A stretch of 64,000 nucleotides of DNA. It comes from Actinoplanes sichuanensis. GTDB taxonomy: Bacteria > Actinomycetota > Actinomycetes > Mycobacteriales > Micromonosporaceae. Every line of letters starts with the position of its first letter. Position 1 is the first letter of the stretch. The stretch spans positions 1,488,001-1,552,000 of the forward strand of contig NZ_AP028461.1 of assembly GCF_033097365.1 (NCBI RefSeq), in the 5' to 3' direction. Shown here one piece after another: positions 40,349 to 53,674 of the stretch. The notes beneath the pieces are model-generated. The model made no database searches, was not told the DNA's origin, and saw nothing but the letters and a program-made list of their open reading frames with translations. The position numbers and the translations under genes are program-made.

Positions 40349-40393
40349 TTGACGGCTGCGGCGGTGGCGGGAACACTCCGGAATACGGTTTCC
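40349..40393 (+). promoter_or_regulatory. Promoter with shared LacI operator, before the secreted beta-helix gene
   Basis: TTGACG (40349-40354) starts 31 bases before GGAATACGGTTTCC (40380-40393). The operator is a near-palindrome centred on CG and lies in a 19-base block, ACTCCGGAATACGGTTTCC, repeated exactly before the sugar importer operon. It would cover the transcription start. The remainder of the 327-base gap 40179-40505 holds no gene I can support; about 110 bases of leader separate the operator from the start codon. Confidence 0.8.
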
Positions 40394-40505
40394 GGGCCGC
40401 CGGACCCCTCCGCGAGCCTGCTGTGAGTGCTGCCCGCCGTACCCCCTGCCCGCATCTGCCCTGCCACCGGGGCCGAACCGGGCCTCAATCCATGGAGAGA
40501 TGTCG

Positions 40506-43500
40506 ATGAAAGCGAACGCCCCCTCGCGACTGAGACGTTTCACAGTTGTAGCCGTAGCCGCCCTCCTCAGTACCGTCTCGATGTCCACCCCGGCGAGGGC
40601 CGAGGTCGTCGGGGCCACCTACTACGTCGACGCGGCCGCCGGGAACGACACCGACACCGGTCTGAGCAGCATCAACGCCTGGCGCACCCTGGATCAGGTC
40701 AATCGCACGACGTTCCGACCGGGGGACCGGATCCTGCTGCGCGCCGGGCAGCGCTGGACCGGGCAGCTCTGGCCCAAGGGCGACGGCTCCGATGCGGCGC
40801 CGATCGTCGTCGACCGCTGGGGCGACGGCGACAAGCCCGGCATCGACGCGGCGGGCGCGACCGGTGACGCGGTGCGGCTGTTCAACCAGGAGCACTGGAC
40901 GATCCGCAACCTGGACGTCACGAACACCGCCGCACCCACCGGCACTCCCGGCGCCAACCTGGCCGACCTGCGCGGCGTCCACATCAGCGGCGACAACGGC
41001 GAGACCCTGGACGGCTTCCTGATCGACGCCGTCGACGTGCACGACGTGACCGGCGAGGTCCGTTGGATCAGTGGCGCGTACGAGCAGACCGAGCCCGGCG
41101 TCTACAAGGGCAACGGCTGGGACCGTTCGAAACGGACCGGGGGCATCGTGCTGGACGGTTCGGTACCGGACATCGCGGCGCCGGGTGCCACCCCGACCGT
41201 GCTCAACGACGTCACCGTGCAGAACTCGACGGTCGTGAACACCTCGTTCGCCGGGATCATCGTCAAGCAGTACAGCGGGGACGCTCCGGGTGCCGTCGCG
41301 ACCGGCTGGGGCAGCCGGGACAACGCGACCGACCCGAAGTTCACCCCGCACACGAACGTGGTGATCCGCGGCAACTACATCAGGCAGGACGGTACGCCGT
41401 ACGGCTGCAACGGCCTTTATCTGACGGGTGTCCGCGGGGCCCTCGTCGAACGCAACGTCGTCCACCGGACCGGCACGTCGGGGATCGAGACCTACTTCGC
41501 CGACGACGTGACCGTGCAGTTCAACGAGGTGTACGAGACCACGGTGAAAGCCGGTGGCGCCGACTCGAACGGCATCGACGCGGACAAGGGCACCACCCGG
41601 CAGGTGTTCCAGTACAACTTCGTGCACCACAACGGTGACGGGTTCCTGATCTGCCAGTTCGGCTTCGGTGACGTGGTGATCCGCGGCAACGTGGTGGCGT
41701 CCAACAGCCGGCACCAGGTCTACCTGCACTCGGACCGGGCGGCGCGGGCGGAGGTCTACCACAACACGATCTACAACGACCGCAGTGCGACGCTCGTCTA
41801 CGGCTACGGGAGCTCGCTGAACGCGACATACACGATGCGCGACAACGTGCTGTTCTCGACGCGTGCCGGGGCGGCGCTCACCACCAGCCCGACGATCTTC
41901 TATGACGGCAACCTCTACGGCGGTGCCGAACTGGCCGTTCCGGACAGCGACACCCGTGCCGTCGTCGGTGCTCCACTCTTCGTGAATCCGCAGCTCAGTG
42001 GACCTTTCGGTACTCCGGAAACCGGGCCGCAACTGGCCGCGGCACACGGGTTCGCGGTCGATTCGGCGTCTCCGGCGATCGATGGTGGCGTGCCGATCGA
42101 GGCGAACGGTGGACGGGACTACACCGGTGGTGCGCTCTACAACGGCGACCCGGACATCGGCGCCTTCGAATACCGGACACCCGCCGGTGCCTCGGCCGAG
42201 ACGGTGGCCGGCTACGTCCGTACCCCCGCGGGTCGTCCGGTCGCCGGAGCCACCGTGACCGCCGCCGGGCGGTCCGCGACCACCTCGACCGGCGGCTGGT
42301 TCGCGATTGCGGACGTGCCCTTCGGGCCCGTCACGCTCACCGCGTCGCGCAACGGTTACCAGAGCGCCGAGCAAACGGTTTCCGTGACAGATCACAACCG
42401 GGCGACGGTACGGGTGGAGCTGACGTCCACGAGCACGGTCGGGGTGATCACCGGCCGGGTCCTCGACCAGTACGCACAGCCGGTAGCCGCGGCTGCGGTG
42501 ACGGTTCGTGACGATGCGCAGGTGATCGCCACCGGGACGAGCGGGACCGACGGTGTGTTCGCGGTGACCGGCGTGCCGGTGGGGGAGGGCTTCACGGTGA
42601 CCGCGTCGGCGGCCGCGCTCACCCCGGCGTCGCGTGCCGGCCTGGCCGTCGGGCCGGACACCGCCACCGACGCGGGTGCGCTGCTGCTGGCCGCGACGGT
42701 GCCCGACTACGTGGACGTGCAGGACTTCGACGACCTGCCCGACGGGCCGCTGGCCACCGGCACGAACGGTCTCACGGTCAGCGGGGCGGTCCAGGTGGCC
42801 GACGGCGCCGTCCAGCTCACCCGGACCGTGAACAGCGGCACCACCCGGGTGCTGCGTGCCTTCGACCCGCCACTGAAAGGCCTGGTCACCGTGGAGAGCC
42901 GGGTGATGATCGACCAGCCGTACGTCTCCGGGAACCACTGGTGGGGTGTGCCCTACGTGACCGGGAGTGACGGGGTCAACGCGATCAGCGTGGCGTTCAC
43001 GAAGAACACCGTGGTCGCCTACAACGGCGCGAGCACGGTCACGGTGGGTCGCTATGAGCTGGGCCGATGGCACCGGGTGCGCACCGTGATCGACACCGTG
43101 AACCAGCGGTTCGACCTCTACCTCGACGGGGTTCGGGTCCTGGAGCGGGCCGCGTTCCGGGTGCCTGTCGACGGGGTGGCGCGGCTCGACTACTTCGCCA
43201 ACAGCAGCAACTATGGTCAAGTGCACCTCGATGACCTGCGGGTTTCCCGGGGTGTGGGTCTCACTCCGGACGACTCGGGGCTGTTGAGCCTGACCACCGG
43301 GCACGGGGTGCCGCAGGCGGTGCCCGGGGGCGGATATCTGCTGGAGGTGCCGGCCGTGACCACCTTGGTGGACGTGACGGCGGTGGCGCGGAGCCGGTTC
43401 GCGCGGTCGGTGACGATCGGTGACTCGGCAACGGAGGGTGATCGGGCCTTCGCCACTGTGACGTTGGGTGATACGGGTGCATCGGTTCCGGTGACGGTCA

Positions 43501-43859
43501 CCGCTGAGGACGGCACGCGTACGGCGTACCCCCTGGAGATCCGCAAGCCCTCGCTGGCCGCCGACGCCTCGCTGACCGCACTGACCGTCAGCGTCGCGGA
43601 TCTTGATCCGGCGTTCGCGTCGGAGGTCCTCCACTACGCCGTCGATGTGCCGTCCGGGACCACGAAGATGCAGGTCACAGCTACGCCGGCGAACCCGCGG
43701 TCGAGTGTGTCGGTGGCCGGAAGGGCCGGTCCGGCGACGATTCGCCTGCCGTTCGGGACCAGCACCGTGCCGATCGTGGTGACCTCCGCCGACGGCACCG
43801 CGACCAGCACCTACACGATCACGGTGACCCGTCCGCGCTGCCGGGCGCTGCGCCCCTGA
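40506..43859 (+). CDS. Secreted multidomain right-handed beta-helix protein, likely polysaccharide lyase or hydrolase
   Basis: A 1117-residue exported protein. ATG 40506 has GGAGAG six bases upstream, better placed than ATG 40500. The signal peptide ends at A-R-A (residue 32). Residues 36-555 are a parallel beta-helix of pectate-lyase type, starting Y-Y-V-D-A-A-A-G-N-D with repeated N-x-V/I-x-N turns. Two carboxypeptidase-regulatory-like domains follow (about 565-640 and 645-735), then a LamG-like sandwich (about 740-915) and two cadherin-like sandwiches to the end. The beta-helix probably cuts or binds an acidic plant or microbial polysaccharide. The operator shared with the sugar importer supports this; the exact enzyme class is not predictable. 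A hairpin closes the gene. Confidence 0.8.
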   Translation: MKANAPSRLRRFTVVAVAALLSTVSMSTPARAEVVGATYYVDAAAGNDTDTGLSSINAWRTLDQVNRTTFRPGDRILLRAGQRWTGQLWPKGDGSDAAPIVVDRWGDGDKPGIDAAGATGDAVRLFNQEHWTIRNLDVTNTAAPTGTPGANLADLRGVHISGDNGETLDGFLIDAVDVHDVTGEVRWISGAYEQTEPGVYKGNGWDRSKRTGGIVLDGSVPDIAAPGATPTVLNDVTVQNSTVVNTSFAGIIVKQYSGDAPGAVATGWGSRDNATDPKFTPHTNVVIRGNYIRQDGTPYGCNGLYLTGVRGALVERNVVHRTGTSGIETYFADDVTVQFNEVYETTVKAGGADSNGIDADKGTTRQVFQYNFVHHNGDGFLICQFGFGDVVIRGNVVASNSRHQVYLHSDRAARAEVYHNTIYNDRSATLVYGYGSSLNATYTMRDNVLFSTRAGAALTTSPTIFYDGNLYGGAELAVPDSDTRAVVGAPLFVNPQLSGPFGTPETGPQLAAAHGFAVDSASPAIDGGVPIEANGGRDYTGGALYNGDPDIGAFEYRTPAGASAETVAGYVRTPAGRPVAGATVTAAGRSATTSTGGWFAIADVPFGPVTLTASRNGYQSAEQTVSVTDHNRATVRVELTSTSTVGVITGRVLDQYAQPVAAAAVTVRDDAQVIATGTSGTDGVFAVTGVPVGEGFTVTASAAALTPASRAGLAVGPDTATDAGALLLAATVPDYVDVQDFDDLPDGPLATGTNGLTVSGAVQVADGAVQLTRTVNSGTTRVLRAFDPPLKGLVTVESRVMIDQPYVSGNHWWGVPYVTGSDGVNAISVAFTKNTVVAYNGASTVTVGRYELGRWHRVRTVIDTVNQRFDLYLDGVRVLERAAFRVPVDGVARLDYFANSSNYGQVHLDDLRVSRGVGLTPDDSGLLSLTTGHGVPQAVPGGGYLLEVPAVTTLVDVTAVARSRFARSVTIGDSATEGDRAFATVTLGDTGASVPVTVTAEDGTRTAYPLEIRKPSLAADASLTALTVSVADLDPAFASEVLHYAVDVPSGTTKMQVTATPANPRSSVSVAGRAGPATIRLPFGTSTVPIVVTSADGTATSTYTITVTRPRCRALRP

Positions 43860-43869
43860 GGGGCCGCCG

Positions 43870-43919
43870 GCCGTCGCTCGCCACGGTTCGCGCGGGGGAT
43901 CTCGTGGTGGAGCGACGGC
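43870..43919. terminator. Bidirectional hairpin between convergent genes
   Basis: GCCGTCGCTC (43870-43879) pairs exactly with GAGCGACGGC (43910-43919). A second short stem can form inside the loop (CCACG with CGTGG). It lies between the stops of the beta-helix gene and the first LacI gene. Confidence 0.55.
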
Positions 43920-43950
43920 TCGCGGGCGGGCCGACTCTCCGGAGGGCGGG

Positions 43951-45147
43951 TCAGCGGGGTGGGGTGCTGTCCCGCAGGACCACCTCCACCGGCACCTCGA
44001 CGACGGCCGGGTCGCCGGCCAGGGCCAATTCCACGGCTCGGCGGCCCAGGTCGCGCAACGGCACCCGGACCGATGTCAGCGTCGGGGTGACGTCGCGCGC
44101 CGCGTCGATGTCGTCGAAACCGGCGACCGCCACGTCCCGGCCCGGCCGCAGCCCCGCCTCGCGGACCGCGGTCATCGCGCCGATCGCCATCACGTCGTTC
44201 ACCGCGAAGATCGCCTCCACATCACCCGCGCCGGATGGGCCGCCCGTGCCGGATGGGCCGCCCGTGCCAGATGGGCCGCCCGTGCCGGATGGGCCGCCCG
44301 TGCCGGATGGGCCGCTCGCGCCGGATCGGCTGTCGGGATCGCCGTCGGTGCCGGCAGCGCCGTTCCCGCTGCGCCGGCCGCCGCCGACCGGACCGCCGGC
44401 GCCGCCGCTGAGCAGGGCGGCCGCCGCCCGATGGCCGCCGTCCCGGTTGAGGTCGGTGGCGATCACGTGCCGGTCCTCGACGGTGATGCCGGCCTGGCGT
44501 AACCCGTCGAGGAACCCGCGCCGCCGATCGTGCGACATCCGGATCCGATCATCACCGTGCAGCACCGCGAACCGCCGGTAACCGAGCCCCGCCAACGCCT
44601 GGGCCAGCCGGAACGCGCCACCGTGGTGATCGACGGTCAGAGTCGGGAAGTCGAGCCCGTTGCGGCTCAGCAGGGCCACCCGCCCGCCCGCCCGGCGGTA
44701 CTGGTCGAGTTCCTCGGCGAGGGCGGCGTAGACACCGTCGTCGTCGACCCGGCTACCGGCGATCAGGATCACCTGCGGACGGCGGCCGCGCAGGGTCCGT
44801 ACGATATGCAGGCCCATGTCCGGCGAACGATCGGTGACCGCCGCGGTCAGGGTGAGTCCCGCCGCGTAGGCGCCCTCGGCCACGCCGTCCGCGATCGACG
44901 CGAAGTAGGGATCGTCGACCGCCCCCACCACCAGCGCGACAGTGGTGCTCGATCCGCGGGCGATGGCCTGCGCCGACACGTGCGGGGTGTACCCGAGGCG
45001 TGCCGCCGCCTCGCGGACCCGGGCCAGATTCTCCGCGCGCACACTGCGGTCGCTGCCGTTGAGCGCCCGGGACGCGGTCGCGTAGGAGACGCCGGCCTCG
45101 CGCGCCACGTCGTGCAGCGTCACCGCGGTCCGGTTCTGGTCAGTCAC
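43951..45147 (-). CDS. LacI-family regulator with Gly/Ser/Pro repeat insert
   Basis: A 398-residue regulator, about 60 longer than usual. GTG 45147 gives T-D-Q-N before the helix-turn-helix (T-L-H-D-V-A-R-E-A-G-V-S-Y-A-T-A-S-R-A-L). The effector domain is complete: V-A-L-V-V-G-A-V-D-D-P-Y-F, F-A-V-N-D-V-M-A-I-G and V-A-G-F-D-D-I. Between two halves of the sugar domain lies an insert of about 60 residues with five P-S-G-T-G-G units (about 276-306) encoded by 18-bp repeats. A longer frame from ATG 45183 would start inside the operator and is less likely. It is divergent from a second LacI gene with a shared operator. Confidence 0.85.
   Translation of the reverse strand: MTDQNRTAVTLHDVAREAGVSYATASRALNGSDRSVRAENLARVREAAARLGYTPHVSAQAIARGSSTTVALVVGAVDDPYFASIADGVAEGAYAAGLTLTAAVTDRSPDMGLHIVRTLRGRRPQVILIAGSRVDDDGVYAALAEELDQYRRAGGRVALLSRNGLDFPTLTVDHHGGAFRLAQALAGLGYRRFAVLHGDDRIRMSHDRRRGFLDGLRQAGITVEDRHVIATDLNRDGGHRAAAALLSGGAGGPVGGGRRSGNGAAGTDGDPDSRSGASGPSGTGGPSGTGGPSGTGGPSGTGGPSGAGDVEAIFAVNDVMAIGAMTAVREAGLRPGRDVAVAGFDDIDAARDVTPTLTSVRVPLRDLGRRAVELALAGDPAVVEVPVEVVLRDSTPPR
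44231..44320. repeat. 18-bp tandem repeat, five units, inside the lacI-type gene
   Basis: Five units of 18 bases begin at 44231, 44249, 44267, 44285 and 44303, with consensus CCGGATGGGCCGCCCGTG. They encode P-S-G-T-G-G on the minus strand and keep the frame, so copy-number change would only alter loop length. Confidence 0.9.
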
Positions 45148-45167
45148 AGCCGTGATTCTGGCACGAC

Positions 45168-45181
45168 GGGATACGGTTTCC
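45168..45181. promoter_or_regulatory. Shared LacI operator between divergent lacI genes
   Basis: GGGATACGGTTTCC differs by one base from the operators at 40380 and 46465. It sits 20 bases upstream of the first LacI start and overlaps the -35 zone of the second, for which TATCCT (45193-45198) is a likely -10. Auto- or cross-regulation of both regulators follows. Confidence 0.75.
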
Positions 45182-45232
45182 ATCGGCCGAGCTATCCTTT
45201 CGGCGCCGTCGCAACTGGAGAGGACGCCCGGA

Positions 45233-46273
45233 TTGCCGCACCGTGCCAGGGATACCGTCACCCTCCGTGATGTCGCCGCCGAGGCGGGTGTGTCGCTGGC
45301 GACCGCGTCCCGGGCGCTCGGCGGCGGCCGGTCGGTCGCTCCGGAGAACGCGCGGAAGGTGATCGAGGCGGCGACCCGGCTTCGCTACACGGTGGACGCG
45401 GCGGCCCGCGCGATGAATCGGGGCAGCGACGCGATCGCCCTCATCGCCGACGATCTGGCCACCCCCGCGGTGGCCGCCGTGGTCGCCGCGATGGAGCGCC
45501 AGGCCCGGACCGTCGACGCGTTCGTGACCGTCTCGTCCACCCGCGGCCTGCCCGAGCTGCAGGCCGCGACGATCCGTAACCTGTCCGGTTTCCGGCCGCG
45601 TGCGGTGGTGCTGACCAGTACCCGGATCAGCCAGGATCCGGCCGAGACCCGGGTTCTCGACGAGCTGCTGGCGTTCGAGCGCGGCGGCGGCCGGGTGATT
45701 CTCTACGGCAGCGGCAGTGTGCACCTGCCGTTCGACGCGATCGCCGTCGACGACCGAGGCTCGGCCCGGCTGATGGGCGAGCACCTGGCCCGAACCGGGC
45801 ACCGGCGGGCGATCATCCTGGCCGGGACCCGCGAGCGGGCGTACGCCGCGGCGCGCACCTCCGGTTATGTCGAGGGTCTGCTGGCCGCGGGCGCCGATGT
45901 GCAGGACATCCGGATCGTGAACTGCGAGGTCACCCGGCAGGGCGGGTTCGACGCGACGGCCCAGCTGATCCGGGAGGGCCTGGGCGGTACGGACGTGCTG
46001 GTGGCGATCAACGACACGGTGGCGATCGGGGTGCTGTCGGCGTGTCGGGCGGCCGGGATCGACGTGCCCGGGCAGGTGTCGGTGACCGGGTTCGACGACG
46101 TGCCGCTGGCCCGTGACCTGACGCCGCGGTTGACCACGATCGAGTTGCCGTTCACCGACATCGGCATCCGGGCGATCGAGATGGCGATCCGGGAGCGCCC
46201 GGTGGACGGGCCGCCGTTGCGCGAGACGGTGCGCGGCCGGCTGATCGTGCGGGAGAGCACCGGCCGGGTTTGA
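45233..46273 (+). CDS. LacI-family regulator
   Basis: A 346-residue regulator starting at TTG 45233, with GGAGAGGA eight bases upstream and no ATG or GTG that keeps the helix-turn-helix (T-L-R-D-V-A-A-E-A-G-V-S-L-A-T-A-S-R-A-L). The sugar domain follows with I-A-L-I-A-D-D-L-A-T-P, V-A-I-N-D-T-V-A-I-G and V-T-G-F-D-D-V-P-L-A. It lies directly upstream of the sugar importer operon and is the best candidate to bind the shared operator. Its C-terminal codons form the first unit of a 36-bp repeat that continues past the stop. Confidence 0.88.
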   Translation: MPHRARDTVTLRDVAAEAGVSLATASRALGGGRSVAPENARKVIEAATRLRYTVDAAARAMNRGSDAIALIADDLATPAVAAVVAAMERQARTVDAFVTVSSTRGLPELQAATIRNLSGFRPRAVVLTSTRISQDPAETRVLDELLAFERGGGRVILYGSGSVHLPFDAIAVDDRGSARLMGEHLARTGHRRAIILAGTRERAYAAARTSGYVEGLLAAGADVQDIRIVNCEVTRQGGFDATAQLIREGLGGTDVLVAINDTVAIGVLSACRAAGIDVPGQVSVTGFDDVPLARDLTPRLTTIELPFTDIGIRAIEMAIRERPVDGPPLRETVRGRLIVRESTGRV

Positions 46274-46358
46274 CGGTTGATCGTGCGGAGAGCACCACCC
46301 CGGGCTCGACGGTGAACGTGCCGGAGAGCACCGGCCGGGTCGGACGGCTGATCGTTCG
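46241..46358. repeat. 36-bp degenerate tandem repeat crossing a stop codon
   Basis: Units at 46241-46276, 46277-46312 and 46313-46347 and a partial one to 46358 share TGATCGTGCGG-x-AGAGCACC and an ending GACGG. The first encodes the end of the second LacI protein; the others lie downstream in the 226-base gap before the importer. Confidence 0.7.
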
Positions 46359-46433
46359 AAGTAGCGCGCACGGTCGGTGACCGACTCGCTGGGCAAGCGC
46401 TTTCCCCGAAGTAAATTCATCGACGCGAAACAC

Positions 46434-46478
46434 TTGACCGCCCCGTCGTAACGCCGCAGACTCCGGAATACGGTTTCC
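46434..46478 (+). promoter_or_regulatory. Promoter with shared LacI operator, before the sugar ABC importer
   Basis: TTGACC (46434-46439) and CAGACT (46457-46462) are 17 bases apart. GGAATACGGTTTCC follows at 46465-46478, again exactly 31 bases from the TTGAC start as at 40349. The operator would block transcription start and ends 21 bases before the GTG of the first permease. Confidence 0.82.
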
Positions 46479-46499: not shown

Positions 46500-47426
46500 G
46501 TGAGCGCCATCGGCGAACTCCAACGGCTCAACACCTCCACCGGCGGCCCGCCGCGTAAGCGGGACACCAAGGCCGCCCTGCTGTTCCTCCTGCCCTGGTT
46601 CGCCGGGATTCTGCTGATCACCGCCGGCCCCGTCGCGGCGTCGTTCGTCCTGGGTTTCACCGACTACAACCTGATCCAGCCGCCCGAGTTCAACGGCCTG
46701 GAGAACATCCAGCGGATGTTCACCGACGAGCGGTTGCACCACTCGCTCGGCGTCACCTTCACGTACGTCTTCGTCTCGGTCCCGCTTCAGTTGGCCGCGG
46801 CGCTCGGGCTGGCCATGCTGCTCGACCGGGGGATGCGCGGCCTGGCGTTCTACCGGTCGGCGTTCTACCTGCCGTCGCTGCTCGGCTCCAGCGTGGCGAT
46901 CGCGGTGCTGTGGCGGCAGATCTTCGGCGCCGAGGGCCTGATCAACCAGATGCTCGGCTTCTTCGGCATCGAGGGCACCGGCTGGATCTCCGACCCGGAC
47001 ACCGCCCTGTCCACCCTGATCGTGCTGAACGTGTGGACCTTCGGCGCCCCGATGGTGATCTTCCTGGCCGGGCTGCGGCAGATCCCGGTGATGTACTACG
47101 AGGCCGCGCAGATCGACGGCGCCGGTCGGTGGACCCAGTTCCGTCGGATCACCGTGCCGCTGCTGTCGCCGATCATCTTCTTCAACCTGGTGCTGCAGAT
47201 CATCCACGCCTTCCAGTCGTTCACCCAGGCGTTCGTGGTCTCCGGCGGCACCGGTGGTCCGTCCGACTCGACCATGTTCTACACGCTCTACCTCTATCAG
47301 CGCGGATTCCACAGCTTCGACATGGGTTACGCCTCGGCGCTGGCCTGGCTGCTCCTGCTGATCATCGCCGCGTTCACCGCGGTCAACTTCTGGGCCGCCA
47401 AGCGATGGGTTTTCTACGATGACTGA
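46500..47426 (+). CDS. Sugar ABC transporter permease (CUT1, MalF-like)
   Basis: A 308-residue, six-helix permease from GTG 46500 with AAGGGGGG upstream. The cytoplasmic coupling loop is E-A-A-Q-I-D-G-A-G-R-W-T-Q-F-R-R-I-T-V-P-L-L, the classic EAA motif for docking to the ATPase. It pairs with the next permease (overlap of eight bases) and the lipoprotein downstream. No ATPase gene is present, so a shared MsiK-type ATPase elsewhere in the genome is expected. The operator at 46465 puts it under LacI control. Confidence 0.92.
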   Translation: MSAIGELQRLNTSTGGPPRKRDTKAALLFLLPWFAGILLITAGPVAASFVLGFTDYNLIQPPEFNGLENIQRMFTDERLHHSLGVTFTYVFVSVPLQLAAALGLAMLLDRGMRGLAFYRSAFYLPSLLGSSVAIAVLWRQIFGAEGLINQMLGFFGIEGTGWISDPDTALSTLIVLNVWTFGAPMVIFLAGLRQIPVMYYEAAQIDGAGRWTQFRRITVPLLSPIIFFNLVLQIIHAFQSFTQAFVVSGGTGGPSDSTMFYTLYLYQRGFHSFDMGYASALAWLLLLIIAAFTAVNFWAAKRWVFYDD

Positions 47427-48309
47427 CCTCGCTGAGCGTGTTACCCCGGCGCCGGCGAAGGCCGCGGCGACCGCGAAGGTCCCAGGCCCCTGGCGGAGCA
47501 TCGCCAAGCACACCGCCCTGATCCTGCTCACCCTGGTGATGCTCTACCCGGTGATCTGGATGGTGGTCAGCTCGCTGCGACCCAACGAGGAGATCTTCCG
47601 CTCCCCGGGTGTCATCCCGGACAGCTTCCGCTTCGAGAACTACAGCGAGGGCTGGACCGCGCTGGCCTCCCCGTTCGGCCACTACCTGATCAACTCGGCA
47701 ATCGTCGTGATCGGCTGCATCATCGGCAACCTGGTCTCCTGCTCGATGGCCGCCTACGCCTTCGCCCGGTTGGAGTTCACCGGCAAGAAGCTGTGGTTCG
47801 CGATCATGCTGGGCACCATCATGCTGCCGATCCACGTGATCATCGTCCCGCAGTACGTGATGTTCTCGCAGTTCGGCTGGGTCAACACGTTCCTGCCGCT
47901 GATCGTGCCGAAACTGCTCGCCACCGACGCGTTCTTCGTCTTCCTGATGGTCCAGTTCATCCGCGGTCTGCCGCGCGAGCTGGACGAGGCGGCCCGGATC
48001 GACGGCGCCGGTCATCCCCGCATCTTCCTGCAGGTGATCCTGCCGCTGATGCTGCCGGCCCTGGCCACCACCACGATCTTCACGTTCATCTGGACGTGGA
48101 ACGACTTCTTCAGCCAGCTCATCTACCTCACCGACCCGGACATGTACACGGTTCCGGTCGCCCTGCGCTCCTATGTCGACGCCACGGTCTCGACGTCGTG
48201 GGGATCGATGTTCGCCATGAGCGTCGTATCGCTGCTGCCGATCTTCCTCGCGTTCCTGGTCGGTCAGCGCTTCCTGATCAAGGGCATTGCGACCACCGGC
48301 ATCAAATGA
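47419..48309 (+). CDS. Sugar ABC transporter permease (CUT1, MalG-like)
   Basis: A 296-residue, six-helix permease. The EAA loop reads E-L-D-E-A-A-R-I-D-G-A-G-H-P-R-I-F-L-Q-V-I-L-P. Other MalG-type marks are M-L-Y-P-V-I-W-M-V-V-S-S-L-R-P-N-E-E at the first helix and T-W-N-D-F-F-S-Q late. Its ATG lies inside the end of the first permease gene. It forms the second half of the membrane channel. Confidence 0.92.
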   Translation: MTDLAERVTPAPAKAAATAKVPGPWRSIAKHTALILLTLVMLYPVIWMVVSSLRPNEEIFRSPGVIPDSFRFENYSEGWTALASPFGHYLINSAIVVIGCIIGNLVSCSMAAYAFARLEFTGKKLWFAIMLGTIMLPIHVIIVPQYVMFSQFGWVNTFLPLIVPKLLATDAFFVFLMVQFIRGLPRELDEAARIDGAGHPRIFLQVILPLMLPALATTTIFTFIWTWNDFFSQLIYLTDPDMYTVPVALRSYVDATVSTSWGSMFAMSVVSLLPIFLAFLVGQRFLIKGIATTGIK

Positions 48310-48332: not shown

Positions 48333-49613
48333 ATGAAAAAAGTTCTCGTAGGAGCATTGGCCGCGCTACTTCTCGCCGGGTGCGGCGGTGGGGGCGGCGG
48401 CAAGGCCGACGGTGACCTGACCGCCGACAAGATCGAGCTGCGCTTCACCTGGTGGGGCTCGGACGCCCGCCACCAGCGCACCCAGCAGGTCATCGACCTG
48501 TGGCAGAAGACCCACCCGAACATCACCATCAAGGGCGAGTTCAAGGAGTGGAACGGCTACTGGGACAGCCTGGCCACGACGGTCGCCGCGAACGACGCGC
48601 CGGACGTCATCCAGATGGACGAGCTGTACCTCGCGTCCTACGCCGAGCGCGGCGCGCTGCTCGACCTCGGCACCGCCGGTAAGAACCTGACCAGCACCGA
48701 CTTCGACGCCAAGGCGCTGGCCACCGGTGCCATCGACGGCAAACAGTACGGCCTGCCGACCGGCGTCACCACGTACTCGCTGGTCGCCAACACCGACCTG
48801 CTCGCCAAGTACGGCATCACGCTGCCCGACGACGCGTCCTGGACCTGGGACGACCTCAAGACCGTCGGCGATCAGATCTCCAAGGCCAGCAAAGGCGAGG
48901 TCACCGGCCTGCAGTCGTGGGGCTTCGACATCGGCGGCGTGAACATCTGGGCCCGCCAGAACGGCGCCTCGCTCTACTCCCCGGACGGCAAGGTGGCCAT
49001 CCCGGCCGACATCCTCGCCAAGTACTGGCAGTACCTGCTCGACATCGCCAAGCAGGGCATCGCCCCGCCCGCGTCGGTGAGCGTCGAACGCGCCGGGGCC
49101 GGCCTCGACCAGTCCGGCACGGCCACCAACAAGTCGGCCATCGGCACCTGGTGGAACAGCCAGCTCACCTCGCTGGCCAAGGCCTCCGGCCAGAACCTCA
49201 AACTTCTCAAGATCCCCGGCGAGGGTACGGCCACCGGCGCCTACTACAAGCCGTCGATGTTCTGGTCGATCTCGTCGAGGTCGAAGCACCCGGCCGAGGC
49301 CGCCGCGTTCGTGAACTTCCTCGGCAACAGCCAGGAGGCCGCCGACATCCTGCTCACCGACCGTGGCATCCCGGCCAACACCAAGATCCGGACCGCGCTC
49401 ACCGGCAAGCTCGAGGGCACCGACAAGGCGGCCGCCGAGTTCCTCGACTCGGTCAAGGTCGGCGAGGCCCCGCGGGTGACCCCGAACGGCGCCAGTGACG
49501 TGGAGGCCATCCTCAAGCGCCACACCGAGTCGGTCCTCTTCGAACGCGAGACCCCGCAGCAGGCCGCCGAAGCCTTCATCAAGGAACTCCAGGCCGGCAT
49601 CGACGCCGCCTGA
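48333..49613 (+). CDS. Sugar-binding lipoprotein (extracellular solute-binding family 1)
   Basis: A 426-residue binding protein. ATG 48333 has GGAGGAA seven bases upstream. Residues 1-17 form a lipoprotein leader, and C17 follows L-L-A-G as the lipobox. The mature part has L-R-F-T-W-W-G-S-D at the first strand, F-x-E-W-N-G-Y-W-D, D-V-I-Q-M-D, Y-G-L-P-T-G-V-T-T-Y-S-L and W-W-N-S-Q, which fit oligosaccharide-binding family 1 proteins with many aromatic contacts. It delivers sugar to the two permeases. Two strong hairpins follow its stop and may raise its transcript level over the downstream genes. Confidence 0.9.
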   Translation: MKKVLVGALAALLLAGCGGGGGGKADGDLTADKIELRFTWWGSDARHQRTQQVIDLWQKTHPNITIKGEFKEWNGYWDSLATTVAANDAPDVIQMDELYLASYAERGALLDLGTAGKNLTSTDFDAKALATGAIDGKQYGLPTGVTTYSLVANTDLLAKYGITLPDDASWTWDDLKTVGDQISKASKGEVTGLQSWGFDIGGVNIWARQNGASLYSPDGKVAIPADILAKYWQYLLDIAKQGIAPPASVSVERAGAGLDQSGTATNKSAIGTWWNSQLTSLAKASGQNLKLLKIPGEGTATGAYYKPSMFWSISSRSKHPAEAAAFVNFLGNSQEAADILLTDRGIPANTKIRTALTGKLEGTDKAAAEFLDSVKVGEAPRVTPNGASDVEAILKRHTESVLFERETPQQAAEAFIKELQAGIDAA

Positions 49614-49735: not shown

Positions 49736-50803
49736 ATGTCTCAACCTCGATACCGTGCGGCGATCGTCGGCGCCGGAGCCATCGCCGCCGCGCACGCCCA
49801 GGCCCTCCAGCACCACGGCGACCGCGTCGCCCTCACCGCAGTCGTCGACGTCAACCCCGACCTGGCCCGGCACTTCGCCGCCAAGTGGGACATCCCGCAC
49901 GTGCACACCGACCTGGACGTCCTGGACCGGGTCGACCTCGTCCACCTGTGCACCCCGCCCGCCACGCACACCCCGCTCGCCCTGAGATGCCTCGAAGCGG
50001 GCGCGAACGTGCTGGTGGAGAAGCCGCCGACACTGTCGCTGGCCGAGCTCGACACCCTGGCCGAGGCCTCCCGGCGGACCGGCGCGCACGTCGCCACCGT
50101 CTTCCAGCACCGCTTCGGCACCGGCGCCCACCGGCTGCGGGAGATGATCGCCGCCGGTGACCTCGGCCGGCCGCTGTTGGCCACCTGTGAGACCCAGTGG
50201 TACCGCGACGACGACTACTACCGGGTCCCGTGGCGCGGCAAGTGGGCGACCGAGGGCGGCGGTCCGACCATGGGCCACGGCATCCACCAGTTCGACCTGC
50301 TGCTCTCCATCCTCGGCCGGTGGGAGCAGGTCACCGCGGTCACCGCCACGCGGGCCCGCGAGGTGGAGACCGAGGACGTGTCGATGGCCCTGGTCACGTT
50401 CGCCGACGGCACCCTCGCCTCGGTGGTCAACTCGGTGGTCTCGCCCCGGCAGACCTCCTCGCTGCGGTTCGACTTCGAGAACGCCACGGTCGACCTCACC
50501 CACCTGTACGGCTACCGCGACGCCGACTGGACGATCACGCCGGTGCCCGGCCACGAGGACCTGACCGCGGGCTGGAACCGGACCCGATCGGACACGGTCA
50601 GCGGCCACATCGACCAGCTCGCCGCCGTGCTCGACGCCCTCGACGCGGGAATAGCGCCGCCGGTCTCGTTGCCGGACACCCGTACCACCATGGAGTTCAT
50701 CGCCGCCCTGTATGCCTCGGCGGCCACCGGACAGCCGGTCCGCAGCGGTGAGATCGGCCCCGAGCATCCCTTCGCGGCCACGATGAACGGAGCCGGCCGA
50801 TGA
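49736..50803 (+). CDS. Gfo/Idh/MocA-family oxidoreductase
   Basis: A 355-residue dehydrogenase. The Rossmann start reads A-A-I-V-G-A-G-A-I-A-A-A-H, and the family's E-K-P Lys is in N-V-L-V-E-K-P-P-T-L. The C-terminal sheet domain contains G-G-G-P-T-M-G-H-G-I-H-Q-F-D, whose His residues line the active site. It would oxidise a sugar or inositol-like ring using NAD(P). ATG follows GGGAG. Its last four bases overlap the DUF6807 gene, beginning a tightly coupled four-gene run to 53674. Confidence 0.9.
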   Translation: MSQPRYRAAIVGAGAIAAAHAQALQHHGDRVALTAVVDVNPDLARHFAAKWDIPHVHTDLDVLDRVDLVHLCTPPATHTPLALRCLEAGANVLVEKPPTLSLAELDTLAEASRRTGAHVATVFQHRFGTGAHRLREMIAAGDLGRPLLATCETQWYRDDDYYRVPWRGKWATEGGGPTMGHGIHQFDLLLSILGRWEQVTAVTATRAREVETEDVSMALVTFADGTLASVVNSVVSPRQTSSLRFDFENATVDLTHLYGYRDADWTITPVPGHEDLTAGWNRTRSDTVSGHIDQLAAVLDALDAGIAPPVSLPDTRTTMEFIAALYASAATGQPVRSGEIGPEHPFAATMNGAGR

Positions 50804-51693
50804 CCGTCCAGGTCGAGCACCGGCTGGGCGGTTCGGTCACCGTCTCCGCCGGTCAGGTGCCCCTCTTCTCGTACGTCTACCGGCCGGACACCCCGCAGCT
50901 GGAGTCGCCGAAGCCGTACCTCCATCCGATCCGCACCCTGGCCGGCGACCTCGTGTCGCTGTACCGCCCGCACGACCACGTCTGGCACAAGGGCATCGCC
51001 TGGTCGCTGCCGCATGTCGGCGAACACAACTTCTGGGGCGGGCCGACCTACGTGCACGGCCGGTTCTACGTGCAGAAACCCAACAACGGCAGCGCCCTGC
51101 ACCGCAGCCTGGACACGCTCACCGACACCGCGCTCGGTCACACGCTCGACTGGATCTCCGAACAGGGCGCGCCGGTCATCACCGAGCAGCGGACCCTGAC
51201 CTGGGCGATCGCCGACGACGTGAGCTGGGTGCTCACCTTCGCCACCACGATGACGAACGTGTCCGGCGCGACCCTCGCGTTCGGGTCGCCGACCACGAAG
51301 GGCCGGGAGAACGCCGGGTACGGCGGGCTGTTCTGGCGGGGGCCGCGCTCGTTCACCAACGGTCTGCTCCAGTCGCCGGACGGCACCGGGGGCGACGAGT
51401 TGCGCGGCACGCGGGGGCCGTGGTTCGCGTTCCGCGGCCGGCACGACGGAGTGGACCGGTCGTCGACCGTGGTGGTCGTGGACGACTCGGCCAATCCGCA
51501 TCATCCGCCGCGGTGGTTCGCCCGTACCGAGGAATTCGCCTGTCTGAACCCCGCGCCCTTCTTCAGCGAGGAGTTGGACCTGGCCGCCGGGGACTCCGTC
51601 GCGTTCCGCTACGCGGTCGTGATCGCCGACGGTGACCACGGGGACGCCGGCACCGAGAAGCTCGCCGCGCTCGGCGCGGAGGCCCTGACATGA
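50800..51693 (+). CDS. PmoA family (DUF6807) protein
   Basis: A 297-residue protein of the DUF6807/PmoA-annotated family, common beside Gfo/Idh genes in plant-polymer loci. Recognised from Y-V-Y-R-P, P-Y-L-H-P-I-R-T-L-A-G-D, H-D-H-V-W-H-K-G-I-A-W-S, H-N-F-W-G-G-P-T-Y and R-G-P-R-S-F-T-N-G. The H-D-H and H-K-G residues could bind metal or substrate. The enzymatic role is not established; the PmoA name is an annotation legacy and does not imply methane oxidation. It overlaps both neighbours by four bases. Confidence 0.8.
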   Translation: MTVQVEHRLGGSVTVSAGQVPLFSYVYRPDTPQLESPKPYLHPIRTLAGDLVSLYRPHDHVWHKGIAWSLPHVGEHNFWGGPTYVHGRFYVQKPNNGSALHRSLDTLTDTALGHTLDWISEQGAPVITEQRTLTWAIADDVSWVLTFATTMTNVSGATLAFGSPTTKGRENAGYGGLFWRGPRSFTNGLLQSPDGTGGDELRGTRGPWFAFRGRHDGVDRSSTVVVVDDSANPHHPPRWFARTEEFACLNPAPFFSEELDLAAGDSVAFRYAVVIADGDHGDAGTEKLAALGAEALT

Positions 51694-52394
51694 CGACCTT
51701 TCCCGGTGGTACGTCGGTGAGCCGGCTGTCGGTCTACGGCGAAGGGGGCACGCCGCACCTGCACACGGTGTCGACCGAGGCCTACGTGGTGATCGGTGGC
51801 ACCGGCACGCTGCTGACGCTCGACACGACCGGGCTGCACGAGACGCCGCTGGCCACCGGCTCCACCGTCTGGTTCACGCCGGGCACCGTCCACCGCGCGA
51901 TCAACCACGGTGACCTGCGGGTTCTCGTGATCATGTCGAACGCCGGGCTGCCCGAGGCGGGCGACGCGGTGATGACCTTCCCGACCGAGATCGTCGCCGA
52001 CCCGGCCCGCTACCGGGCCGCGGCCCACCTCGCCGGAGACCCCGAGCTCGCCGTCCGCCACCGGCGTGACCTGGCCCTCGAAGGATTCCAGCAGCTGGTC
52101 GACGCGGCCGAGACCGGCGACCCGAAACCGCTCGCCGAATTCTACGAGGCGGCGGCCGCACTGGTCCGGCCGTCCGTCGCCGGCTGGCGTGACCTGTGGC
52201 GATCCACCGTCGAGGCGGCCACCCGGCAGACCGCCGCCGTCTTGGACGCGCTCGACCACGGCGACGCCCGGCACCTGGCCGCGTCCGCGGTGCTCGGCTC
52301 GCCGCCGTCCGACCCGCTCCGCTGGGGCATGTGCGGACGGCTCGGCGCCCACGACGTCCACCATCCGGCCGTTCTCTCGGAAGGGACCCGATGA
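51690..52394 (+). CDS. Cupin-domain protein
   Basis: A 234-residue protein. A single cupin barrel covers about 10-85: G-G-T-P-H-L-H-T, then E-A-Y-V-V-I-G-G-T-G and P-G-T-V-H-R-A-I-N, with two His and a Glu able to bind one metal. The C-terminal 140 residues are helical and unlike known enzymes. It may isomerise or lactonise a sugar intermediate made by the adjacent dehydrogenases; this comes from context only. The start overlaps the DUF6807 stop (ATGA) and its stop overlaps the next start. Confidence 0.75.
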   Translation: MTTFPGGTSVSRLSVYGEGGTPHLHTVSTEAYVVIGGTGTLLTLDTTGLHETPLATGSTVWFTPGTVHRAINHGDLRVLVIMSNAGLPEAGDAVMTFPTEIVADPARYRAAAHLAGDPELAVRHRRDLALEGFQQLVDAAETGDPKPLAEFYEAAAALVRPSVAGWRDLWRSTVEAATRQTAAVLDALDHGDARHLAASAVLGSPPSDPLRWGMCGRLGAHDVHHPAVLSEGTR

Positions 52395-53674
52395 CCCGCC
52401 GCTACGCCATCGTCGGACTGGGCCACCGCGCGCAGCTCTACATCGACGCACTGTCGGGGGAGTGGGCCGACGTCGGGGAGATCGTCGCGTTCTGTGACAC
52501 CAACCGGACCCGGATGGGCTACCACAACGACCGGCTGACCGCGGCCGGCCGCGAACCCGTGCCGGTCTTCCACCCCGACCGGTACGCCGAGGTCCTGGCC
52601 GCCGTCGACGCCGTGGTGATCACCACGGTCGACGCCCGGCACGCCGACTACGTGTGCGCGGCCCTCGACGCCGGGATCGACGTGATCGTCGAGAAGCCAC
52701 TCACCGTCGACGCCGAGGGCTGCCGCCGGATCGCCGCCGCGGCCGAGCGCAGCCCCGCCCGCCTGATCGTCACATTCAACTACCGGTACTCACCCCGCAA
52801 CAGCGCGGTACGCCGGCTGCTCGCCGACGGGCGCATCGGCGAGGTGACGTCGGTGCACTTCGAGTGGCTGTTGGACACCATCCACGGCGCCGACTACTTC
52901 CGTCGCTGGCACCGCGAGAAGGCCAACTCGGGCGGCCTGCTCGTGCACAAGTCCACCCACCACTTCGACCTGGTCAACTGGTGGCTCGGTAGCCACCCGG
53001 TGTCCGTTTTCGCCCAGGCCGGCCTGCGGTTCTACGGCCCGGCGGGACCGGCCGGTGCATCGGCGCACGACTCGCCGCGGCCGGAACGGGCGCACGGGGC
53101 GCCCGGCCTGGGCACCGACCCGTTCCTGCTCGACATGACTGCCGACCCGCGGCTCAAAGCGCTCTACCTCGACGCCGAACACGAGGACGGGTACATCCGG
53201 GACCGCGACGTCTTCAGCGCCGGGATCGACATCGACGACACGATGTCCGTTCTGGTCACCTACGCCGACCGGACGGCGATGACCTACTCGCTCACCGCGT
53301 ACTCGCCGTGGGAGGGCTATCGGGTCGCGCTCAACGGCACCCGTGGTCGGATCGAACTGGAAGTCTGCGAGCGGGCGTGGACACCGGCGCACGGCGCGAT
53401 CGACCCGAGCGCCCTCGAGCAGACCGGCGGATTCGAGCGGCTGACCGTACAGGAGCACTGGCAGAAGGCCGAGGAGGTGCCGATCGTCAACGGCGCGGGT
53501 GGCCACGGCGGCGGTGACCGACTGCTGCTCGACGACGTCTTCCGCGGCCCCGCCGACGATCCCCTCGCCCGTCAGGCCGGCTACCGCGACGGTATCCGCA
53601 GCGTGTTGACCGGCGTCGCGGCAGACCGATCCGCACGGACCGGTCTGCCGGTGAAGCTGTCCGACCTTATTTGA
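52391..53674 (+). CDS. Gfo/Idh/MocA-family oxidoreductase
   Basis: A 427-residue dehydrogenase, longer than the first one. Rossmann loop Y-A-I-V-G-L-G-H-R-A; catalytic E-K-P-L-T-V in D-V-I-V-E-K-P; active-site segment H-K-S-T-H-H-F-D-L-V-N-W-W. The extra length lies in an insert after F-Y-G-P (about 215-275). This larger type is frequent in carbohydrate operons, acting on sugars with large substituents. It closes the coupled run and overlaps the convergent oxidoreductase gene by eight bases. Confidence 0.88.
   Translation: MTRRYAIVGLGHRAQLYIDALSGEWADVGEIVAFCDTNRTRMGYHNDRLTAAGREPVPVFHPDRYAEVLAAVDAVVITTVDARHADYVCAALDAGIDVIVEKPLTVDAEGCRRIAAAAERSPARLIVTFNYRYSPRNSAVRRLLADGRIGEVTSVHFEWLLDTIHGADYFRRWHREKANSGGLLVHKSTHHFDLVNWWLGSHPVSVFAQAGLRFYGPAGPAGASAHDSPRPERAHGAPGLGTDPFLLDMTADPRLKALYLDAEHEDGYIRDRDVFSAGIDIDDTMSVLVTYADRTAMTYSLTAYSPWEGYRVALNGTRGRIELEVCERAWTPAHGAIDPSALEQTGGFERLTVQEHWQKAEEVPIVNGAGGHGGGDRLLLDDVFRGPADDPLARQAGYRDGIRSVLTGVAADRSARTGLPVKLSDLI

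Follow-up and report, generated by a model that had tools for sequence, protein, structure and literature searches.

Can one short operator join a secreted enzyme, a pair of regulators and a sugar importer into a single regulon? The question is raised by a 64,000-nucleotide stretch of Actinoplanes sichuanensis DNA (contig NZ_AP028461.1, positions 1,488,001 to 1,552,000; hereafter the window), in which a secreted beta-helix protein, two divergent LacI-family regulators, here called LacIA and LacIB, and an ATP-binding cassette (ABC) sugar importer operon lie together. An earlier note on this DNA had proposed that a 14-bp operator ties these genes to one another, and footprinting recovers the same links within the genus and beyond it. 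The arrangement probably represents a small, local LacI regulon for the uptake and breakdown of a glycan that probably contains galactose, and the predicted regulon recurs in four actinomycete families. The note's interpretation as a whole is partly supported.

Pattern matching places the exact 14-mer, GGAATACGGTTTCC, at 40380 and 46465, and a one-mismatch form, GGGATACGGTTTCC, at 45168, the three positions that the note had given. The first and third sites share an identical 19-base block (ACTCCGGAATACGGTTTCC), and each begins 31 bases 3' of the start of a TTGAC element (40349 and 46434), so the shared block and spacing described earlier are likewise confirmed in the sequence. Direct reading finds CAGACT at -10 distance after the TTGAC of the importer operon. 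The sites have the form recognized by LacI/GalR regulators, a CG-centred palindrome at target promoters, with a conserved GGAANNCGNNTTCC frame and imperfect inner bases. The elements are as follows.

40349..40353, + strand: TTGAC, -35-like element of the beta-helix gene (sequence, spacing survey)
40380..40393, + strand: operator 1, GGAATACGGTTTCC, 5' of the secreted beta-helix gene (pattern match; conserved before orthologues)
45168..45181, + strand: operator 2, GGGATACGGTTTCC, between the divergent lacIA and lacIB (pattern match)
46434..46438, + strand: TTGAC, -35-like element of the importer operon (sequence, spacing survey)
46465..46478, + strand: operator 3, GGAATACGGTTTCC, 5' of the importer operon (pattern match)

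Rather than being scattered over many unrelated places, as the note had allowed it might be, the 14-mer occurs at up to one mismatch to GGAATACGGTTTCC in four places in the 12.14-Mb genome. Three are the window sites, which fall within 6.1 kb, and the fourth, at 6388860, lies inside a coding gene whose translation reads as protocatechuate-dioxygenase-like. No further site with at most one mismatch lies outside a coding gene anywhere in the 12.14-Mb genome, and a wider strong regulon is rejected on this basis; the regulon in the source genome is local and has three sites. At up to two mismatches the genome holds 46 places, against two for the reversed pattern. A coding-bias check on 30 of these 46 does not discriminate, since the three real sites also score as if in open frames.

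Conservation within the genus was followed in 67 Actinoplanes genomes, with E-value thresholds of <=1e-60 for LacIB and <=1e-70 for LacIA. LacIB is found in nine of the 67 and LacIA in the same nine. The exact operator form, GGAATACGKTTTCC (also written GGAATACG[G/T]TTTCC), occurs in 10/67 genomes, namely in 9/9 with the LacI pair and in 1/58 without it (Fisher p 2.3e-10, uncorrected for relatedness). Fourteen of the 16 exact sites in the genus lie at the LacI pair locus; the other two, as read from the sequence, are inside reading frames. In eight Actinoplanes relatives the operator stands before the importer operon or the Gfo/Idh/MocA oxidoreductase (GFO) operon, with TTGAC at 31 or 32 nt in 8/8; in two of them (L043, L044) the sequence that was read contains no importer, and the operator precedes a GFO-DUF6807-cupin operon. 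The claim of a conserved promoter architecture stands for the importer/GFO operon of these relatives but does not extend to every site: a TTGAC spacing of 31-34 nt is found in 28 of 44 sites, most clearly at the importer/GFO operon, and is missing at several of those beside beta-helix and lacI genes.

Beyond the genus, a named genome collection was scanned and the best 80 of 554 confirmed loci were considered. LacIB is at least 50% identical in 16 of these 80, and dropping two duplicates of L043 and L047 leaves 14, from Actinoplanes rectilineatus, Micromonospora, Streptomyces, Lentzea, Amycolatopsis and Phytoactinopolyspora. A site with at most one mismatch is present in 22/22 relative loci with LacIB at >=50% identity (the eight Actinoplanes and the 14 named loci) and in 0/64 loci whose LacI is 28-38% identical (the remainder of the best 80). 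A beta-helix orthologue is encoded at 13 of the 14 named loci, and the operator lies at most 560 bases before its matched part in 13/13. A second beta-helix copy at L055 (15571-18879; Micromonospora sp. CPCC 205371) follows the first oxidoreductase gene, in the usual place of the DUF6807 gene, and is without operator. Nine other genera in the family contribute one more locus each, with the site in 9/9 and LacIA nearby in 8/9; three loci in which LacIB is only 39-41% identical carry neither site nor LacIA.

These counts bear on the simplest alternative, that the operator is a chance or non-regulatory repeat. Loose matching within the window alone would allow it: at three mismatches there are five matches against a shuffle mean of 2.04, and 8 of 100 shuffles reach five, which is not significant. 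Conservation at promoters in four actinomycete families nevertheless makes this alternative vanishingly improbable, as do 200 permutations of the motif that kept the central CG and the side letters. In the eight near loci the permuted motifs give a mean of 0.00 sites and a maximum of 0 against 12 real sites, and in the 14 named loci a mean of 0.12 and a maximum of 8 against 26.

The genes joined by the operator, with domain content from Pfam, are the following.

40500..43859, + strand: secreted beta-helix protein, GH136-like, with two CarboxypepD_reg stretches and a Cadherin-like domain (Pfam, model)
43951..45147, - strand: LacIA, LacI-family regulator; recognition helix VSYATASRALN, hinge AQAIA (Pfam, alignment, tree)
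45233..46273, + strand: LacIB, LacI-family regulator; recognition helix VSLATASRALG, hinge ARAM (Pfam, alignment, tree)
46500..47426, + strand: ABC sugar importer permease 1 (Pfam)
47419..48309, + strand: ABC sugar importer permease 2 (Pfam)
48333..49613, + strand: solute-binding protein; nearest PDB sequence B. subtilis YesO (Pfam, PDB sequence search)
49736..50803, + strand: Gfo/Idh/MocA oxidoreductase 1 (Pfam, PDB sequence search)
50800..51693, + strand: DUF6807 protein, uncertain galactose-mutarotase-like fold (Pfam, model)
51690..52394, + strand: cupin-domain protein (Pfam)
52391..53674, + strand: Gfo/Idh/MocA oxidoreductase 2 (Pfam)

The sites, their conservation, their promoter position and the co-occurrence of the LacI pair are read from sequence, and from them we infer binding, repression, an inducer, a substrate and an order of events. 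Both the importer/oxidoreductase operon and the secreted GH136-like gene have the operator where transcription is predicted to start, and a further copy separates the two divergent lacI genes. The products of this gene pair, LacIA and LacIB, would occupy the operators and obstruct RNA polymerase; a sugar brought in by the importer, or a compound made from it, would release the two proteins; and the secreted enzyme, the importer and the catabolic enzymes would then be made together.

The candidate repressors are conserved as a pair. Both LacIA and LacIB match the LacI helix-turn-helix (PF00356) and the periplasmic-binding-protein-like effector domain (PF13377) above cut-off, and operator 2 lies inside the 85 bases that separate their presumed starts. 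In a maximum-likelihood tree of 80 LacI proteins, the 32 LacIA and 32 LacIB rows form two clades, each with support of 100/100 (one partial LacIB row was assigned by hand), and the clades are not sisters in the midpoint-rooted tree, with moderate support (86/84). The two proteins co-occur in every genome checked, in 9/9 of the genus and at 14/14 named loci. In the family sample both genes are present in 18/18 genomes (LacIB >=56%; three at 39-41% excluded), and 11/11 LacIA-bearing genomes (>=58%) among 121 also have LacIB. In one genome (G072) the two genes lie on different contigs and both are retained. The next LacIA-like proteins (48-51%) come from genomes in which LacIB is not found at 1e-60; the exceptions are G097, where the pair is present as well, and G100, with a 41% LacIB-like match. 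Of seven loci of such LacIA kin without LacIB, five have a related cluster of GFO and DUF6807 genes; none of the seven contains GGAANNCGNNTTCC, and an upstream alignment of six gives no clear operator. At L186-L191, a LacI about 50% identical to a LacIA has no adjacent LacIB, and the GFO/DUF6807 cluster is near in 5/6. Hinges differ consistently, being mostly AQAIA in LacIA and mostly ARAM in LacIB, and nearly all recognition helices share a TASR core. Within lacIA, 5.9 copies of an 18-bp repeat (44225-44330) encode a GPSGTG-type insert in the effector domain; LacIA is longer still in G041 (478 residues from helix-turn-helix region to stop), and in G066 and several distant orthologues it has about 340 residues.

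Several observations weigh against a simple one-operator regulon. A looser form, GGAANACGNTTTCC, occurs in 110/250 genomes of the family, so near-variants are common. The lacIA-lacIB gap has no site in 4/8 Actinoplanes relatives (L043, L045-L047), so self-regulation of the lacI genes is not general. Four beta-helix homologues that lie away from the LacI pair have no site with at most one mismatch. Two genomes, G041 and G066, retain the third operator, with only a relic of the beta-helix gene beside it, and one genome, G160, carries an exact operator (L194 4310-4323) before an orthologous importer operon (permease 87% identical) while neither LacIB at 1e-60 nor LacIA above 39% was found genome-wide, nor any LacI match in the 9 kb of sequence read.

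The exact operator form is present without the LacI pair in at least five family genomes (G049, G079, G098, G117 and G160), and in the first four the sites are all inside open reading frames. The site in G160 has possibly outlived the LacI pair or may serve another regulator. G160 belongs to the same genus as G072, where the pair is split between contigs and the beta-helix gene looks like a fragment; the simplest reading would be decay of the regulon in this genus, with both LacI genes lost together. In G072, a fragment resembling the end of the beta-helix gene (L179 10097-10525) lies beside a non-polar site, GGAACACGTTTTCC, and looks like a decaying copy. The relics in G041 and G066 align to the start of the window beta-helix gene with scores of 159 and 72 against maxima of 48 and 43 in 200 shuffles, and neither genome has a beta-helix gene at 1e-60; the window species thus seems to have retained a gene that has disappeared from close relatives. 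In G028 the site is kept and the alignment scores 33 against a shuffle maximum of 43, so that none rises above the shuffles. A ricin-type lectin gene is divergent from the retained operator at the beta-helix relic (L040 12478-13143; L041 6864-7574).

How the operator is read is a separate question, posed by its polarity. With the outer bases and CG fixed (GGAANNCGNNTTCC, four inner bases free), there are 58 sites in 32 loci, and 54 of the 58 pair GGAAT(A/G)C with GGAAA(A/C/T)C, so that, read in one direction, both position 4 and position 9 are T; three of the other four are symmetric and one has C at position 4. The pattern GGRANNCGNNTTCC collects 62 sites, 58 of them polar. The four non-polar ones are the symmetric site L074 11326 in an importer promoter, two sites at L179 (the decaying locus of G072), and L064 1921, which stands apart from the genes treated here. 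Among polar sites with TTGAC 30-35 nt away, the element is on the T-half side in 36/36 and on the other side in 0, and T4 and T9 are also kept in the 22 of 58 polar sites with no TTGAC so spaced, of which eight lie in lacIA-lacIB gaps. The bases by which the polar half-sites differ adjoin the operator centre, and LacI hinge helices contact DNA next to the operator centre.

LacI proteins are usually homodimers, and one explanation, to which we give not quite an even chance, is that homodimers bind here too, that the T-half is fixed with its T-A or T-G as -1/+1 of the transcription start, and that LacIA and LacIB are isorepressors with different inducers. The promoter-side placement of the T-half in all 36 polar sites with TTGAC would follow, and a purine (A or G) stands at position 5 in 58/58 polar sites, as expected of a start nucleotide. 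Such a constraint at the transcription start (T followed by A or G) would account for polarity only. It fits less well with the 22 polar sites that keep T4 and T9 in spite of having no TTGAC at 30-35 nt, and isorepressors would be expected to be lost separately on occasion, of which no case is seen among the genomes checked.

Polarity and co-retention would be explained together if the polar operator were bound by a LacIA-LacIB heterodimer, obligate or favoured, with one subunit on each half-site. This is possible, if rather unlikely. Polarity in 54/58 sites whose inner bases were left free is consistent with it, and so is the persistence of polarity both with (36) and without (22) the spaced TTGAC. 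Both genes occur together wherever checked, both are kept in G072 despite separate contigs, neither was found in its congener G160, and consistently different hinges accompany a TASR core shared by nearly all recognition helices. Yet a promoter constraint yields the identical asymmetry, homodimers are the rule in the family, and the site that precedes the importer of M. deserti (L074), GGAAAACGTTTTCC, is symmetric. Because the genes mostly adjoin each other, they can be inherited jointly with no physical contact between the proteins; the sites share ancestry, so that 54/58 are not independent events; and the polar site of G160 persists without the pair. The fuller proposition, that two deeply separate LacI proteins make up a heterodimeric repressor on a directional operator, with a defined subunit promoter-side and possibly with one repressor sensing two sugars, is likewise rather unlikely.

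It is unlikely that a single LacI reads the operator and that the other is merely a neighbour with an operator elsewhere. There is precedent for such separation in Lactobacillus plantarum, where SacR1 and SacR2 are reported to recognise separate sites, neither binding those of the other (PMC7419226). Here, LacIA is kept on another contig in G072, where no operator is found beside it, and a second conserved motif was not noticed, though no systematic search was made.

The regulon thus predicted would control a secreted enzyme whose fold is informative. An AlphaFold2 model of the beta-helix domain (26-sequence input) has a mean predicted local distance difference test score (pLDDT) of 90.1 and a predicted TM-score (pTM) of 0.92. 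Its six best Foldseek chains belong to five entries, every one of which has lacto-N-biosidase in its title (6kqs and 6kqt name GH136 too), with TMq 0.58-0.76 and E from 4.2e-19 to 3.1e-14; the next match has E 1.2e-7. Model and Foldseek matches agree with the right-handed beta-helix of glycoside hydrolase (GH) family 136, and a PDB sequence search returns the same kind of protein. Residues D355 (codon 41562) and D362 (codon 41583), invariant in 26/26 sequences, align with an aspartate pair seven apart in 6kqs (weakly, 2.7 bits), 7v6i (23.0 bits) and 7v6m (14.8 bits). In ErLnb136, D568 is the acid/base and D575 the nucleophile (PMC7335108). D355 and D362 match these GH136 catalytic aspartates; HMMER numbers those of 6kqs 570 and 577, and the offset of two is presumed. 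The position of the Gal-stacking W548 appears to be Y332 in the window protein.

The protein is best called a GH136-like glycosidase, a substrate-neutral label suggested by sequence and predicted fold; given the sequence distance, an activity other than lacto-N-biosidase is quite possible. Pectate lyase or other polysaccharide lyase identity was considered and rejected, PL6 and Pel9A entries being more than six orders of magnitude worse in E than all six lacto-N-biosidase chains, and on the fold search the reading as a lyase of pectin or plant polysaccharide is rejected. The note's account of the secreted beta-helix protein is corrected to a GH136-like one, and nothing specific to plant polysaccharide was found.

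Clues to the substrate come from the genes that accompany the operator elsewhere. A GH59 gene follows it in both of the Streptomyces loci that were examined (L059, L061), a GH16 gene adjoins it in four other loci (L074, L174, L178, L180), and GDSL esterases occur at three loci; the one GH16 protein compared is closest to the endo-beta-galactosidase 1ups. Together, the GH59, GH16 and GDSL genes point to a galactose-containing, perhaps acetylated glycan. Counter to this clue, GH43 and GH3 also occur among the loci, and the solute-binding protein is nearest to YesO, which we take to be a rhamnogalacturonan-oligosaccharide binder.

PDB sequence matches of oxidoreductase 1 include glucuronide 3-dehydrogenase and DgpA, and no intracellular glycosidase is recognised among the importer operon genes; an oxidative catabolic route through the two Gfo/Idh/MocA oxidoreductases is plausible. 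The DUF6807 model is fair (pLDDT 75.0), and its best matches are GH36 alpha-galactosidases and galactose mutarotases, all at TMq below 0.5; no function is claimed from this fold. Genes for a flavin mononucleotide (FMN) oxidoreductase and a P450 (37875-40178) lie 5' of operator 1 and hold the same place in G041, and only the FMN gene is found in the G066 and G028 stretches. In the window, no site with up to three mismatches lies close upstream of the FMN oxidoreductase and P450 genes.

What this predicted regulon offers is a sequence-defined unit, shared by four actinomycete families, for an uncharacterised glycan pathway comprising a GH136-like enzyme, two Gfo/Idh/MocA oxidoreductases and DUF6807. 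It also provides a clean test case for dedicated LacI-family heterodimers on a polar operator as opposed to the usual homodimers; if real, a polar heterodimer could let a single repressor sense two different sugars. The novelty of a dedicated LacI pair with a polar operator would rest on these comparisons together with general knowledge of the family. None of the four full site forms was found in the literature searched, searches for LacI heterodimers were uninformative and too blunt to show absence from print, and DUF6807 appears in one paper of the literature searched, by name only.

Known systems frame the comparison. GalR and GalS of Escherichia coli are two LacI isorepressors of one regulon and are close paralogues, whereas LacIA and LacIB form separate clades that are not sisters in the midpoint-rooted tree. 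The GH136 lacto-N-biosidases (PDB 7v6m, 7v6i, 5gqc, 6kqs) share with the window protein a right-handed beta-helix, a conserved N-terminal part and catalytic aspartates seven apart; they differ in sequence (about 20-23% identity), in the Tyr found here at the Gal-stacking Trp position, in their accessory domains and in coming from gut bacteria rather than the soil actinomycetes considered here. SacR1 and SacR2 of L. plantarum resemble the present pair as two LacI repressors of one oligosaccharide pathway with a central AACG-TT consensus, but neither of those proteins is reported to bind the other's sites, whereas one operator type is found here at all promoters seen (PMC7419226). That LacI operators precede importer and hydrolase genes is well established, the AcrC study being one example, so the predicted regulon is a new member of a familiar class (PMC5526262). 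The AcrC and MalR-type regulators of Actinoplanes and Streptomyces are likewise LacI repressors whose palindromic operators lie close to genes for sugar importers and secreted hydrolases; the AcrC sites are CTTGC(A/T)G repeats, in contrast to the GGAA-CG-TTCC operators and conserved LacI gene pair described here (PMC5526262).

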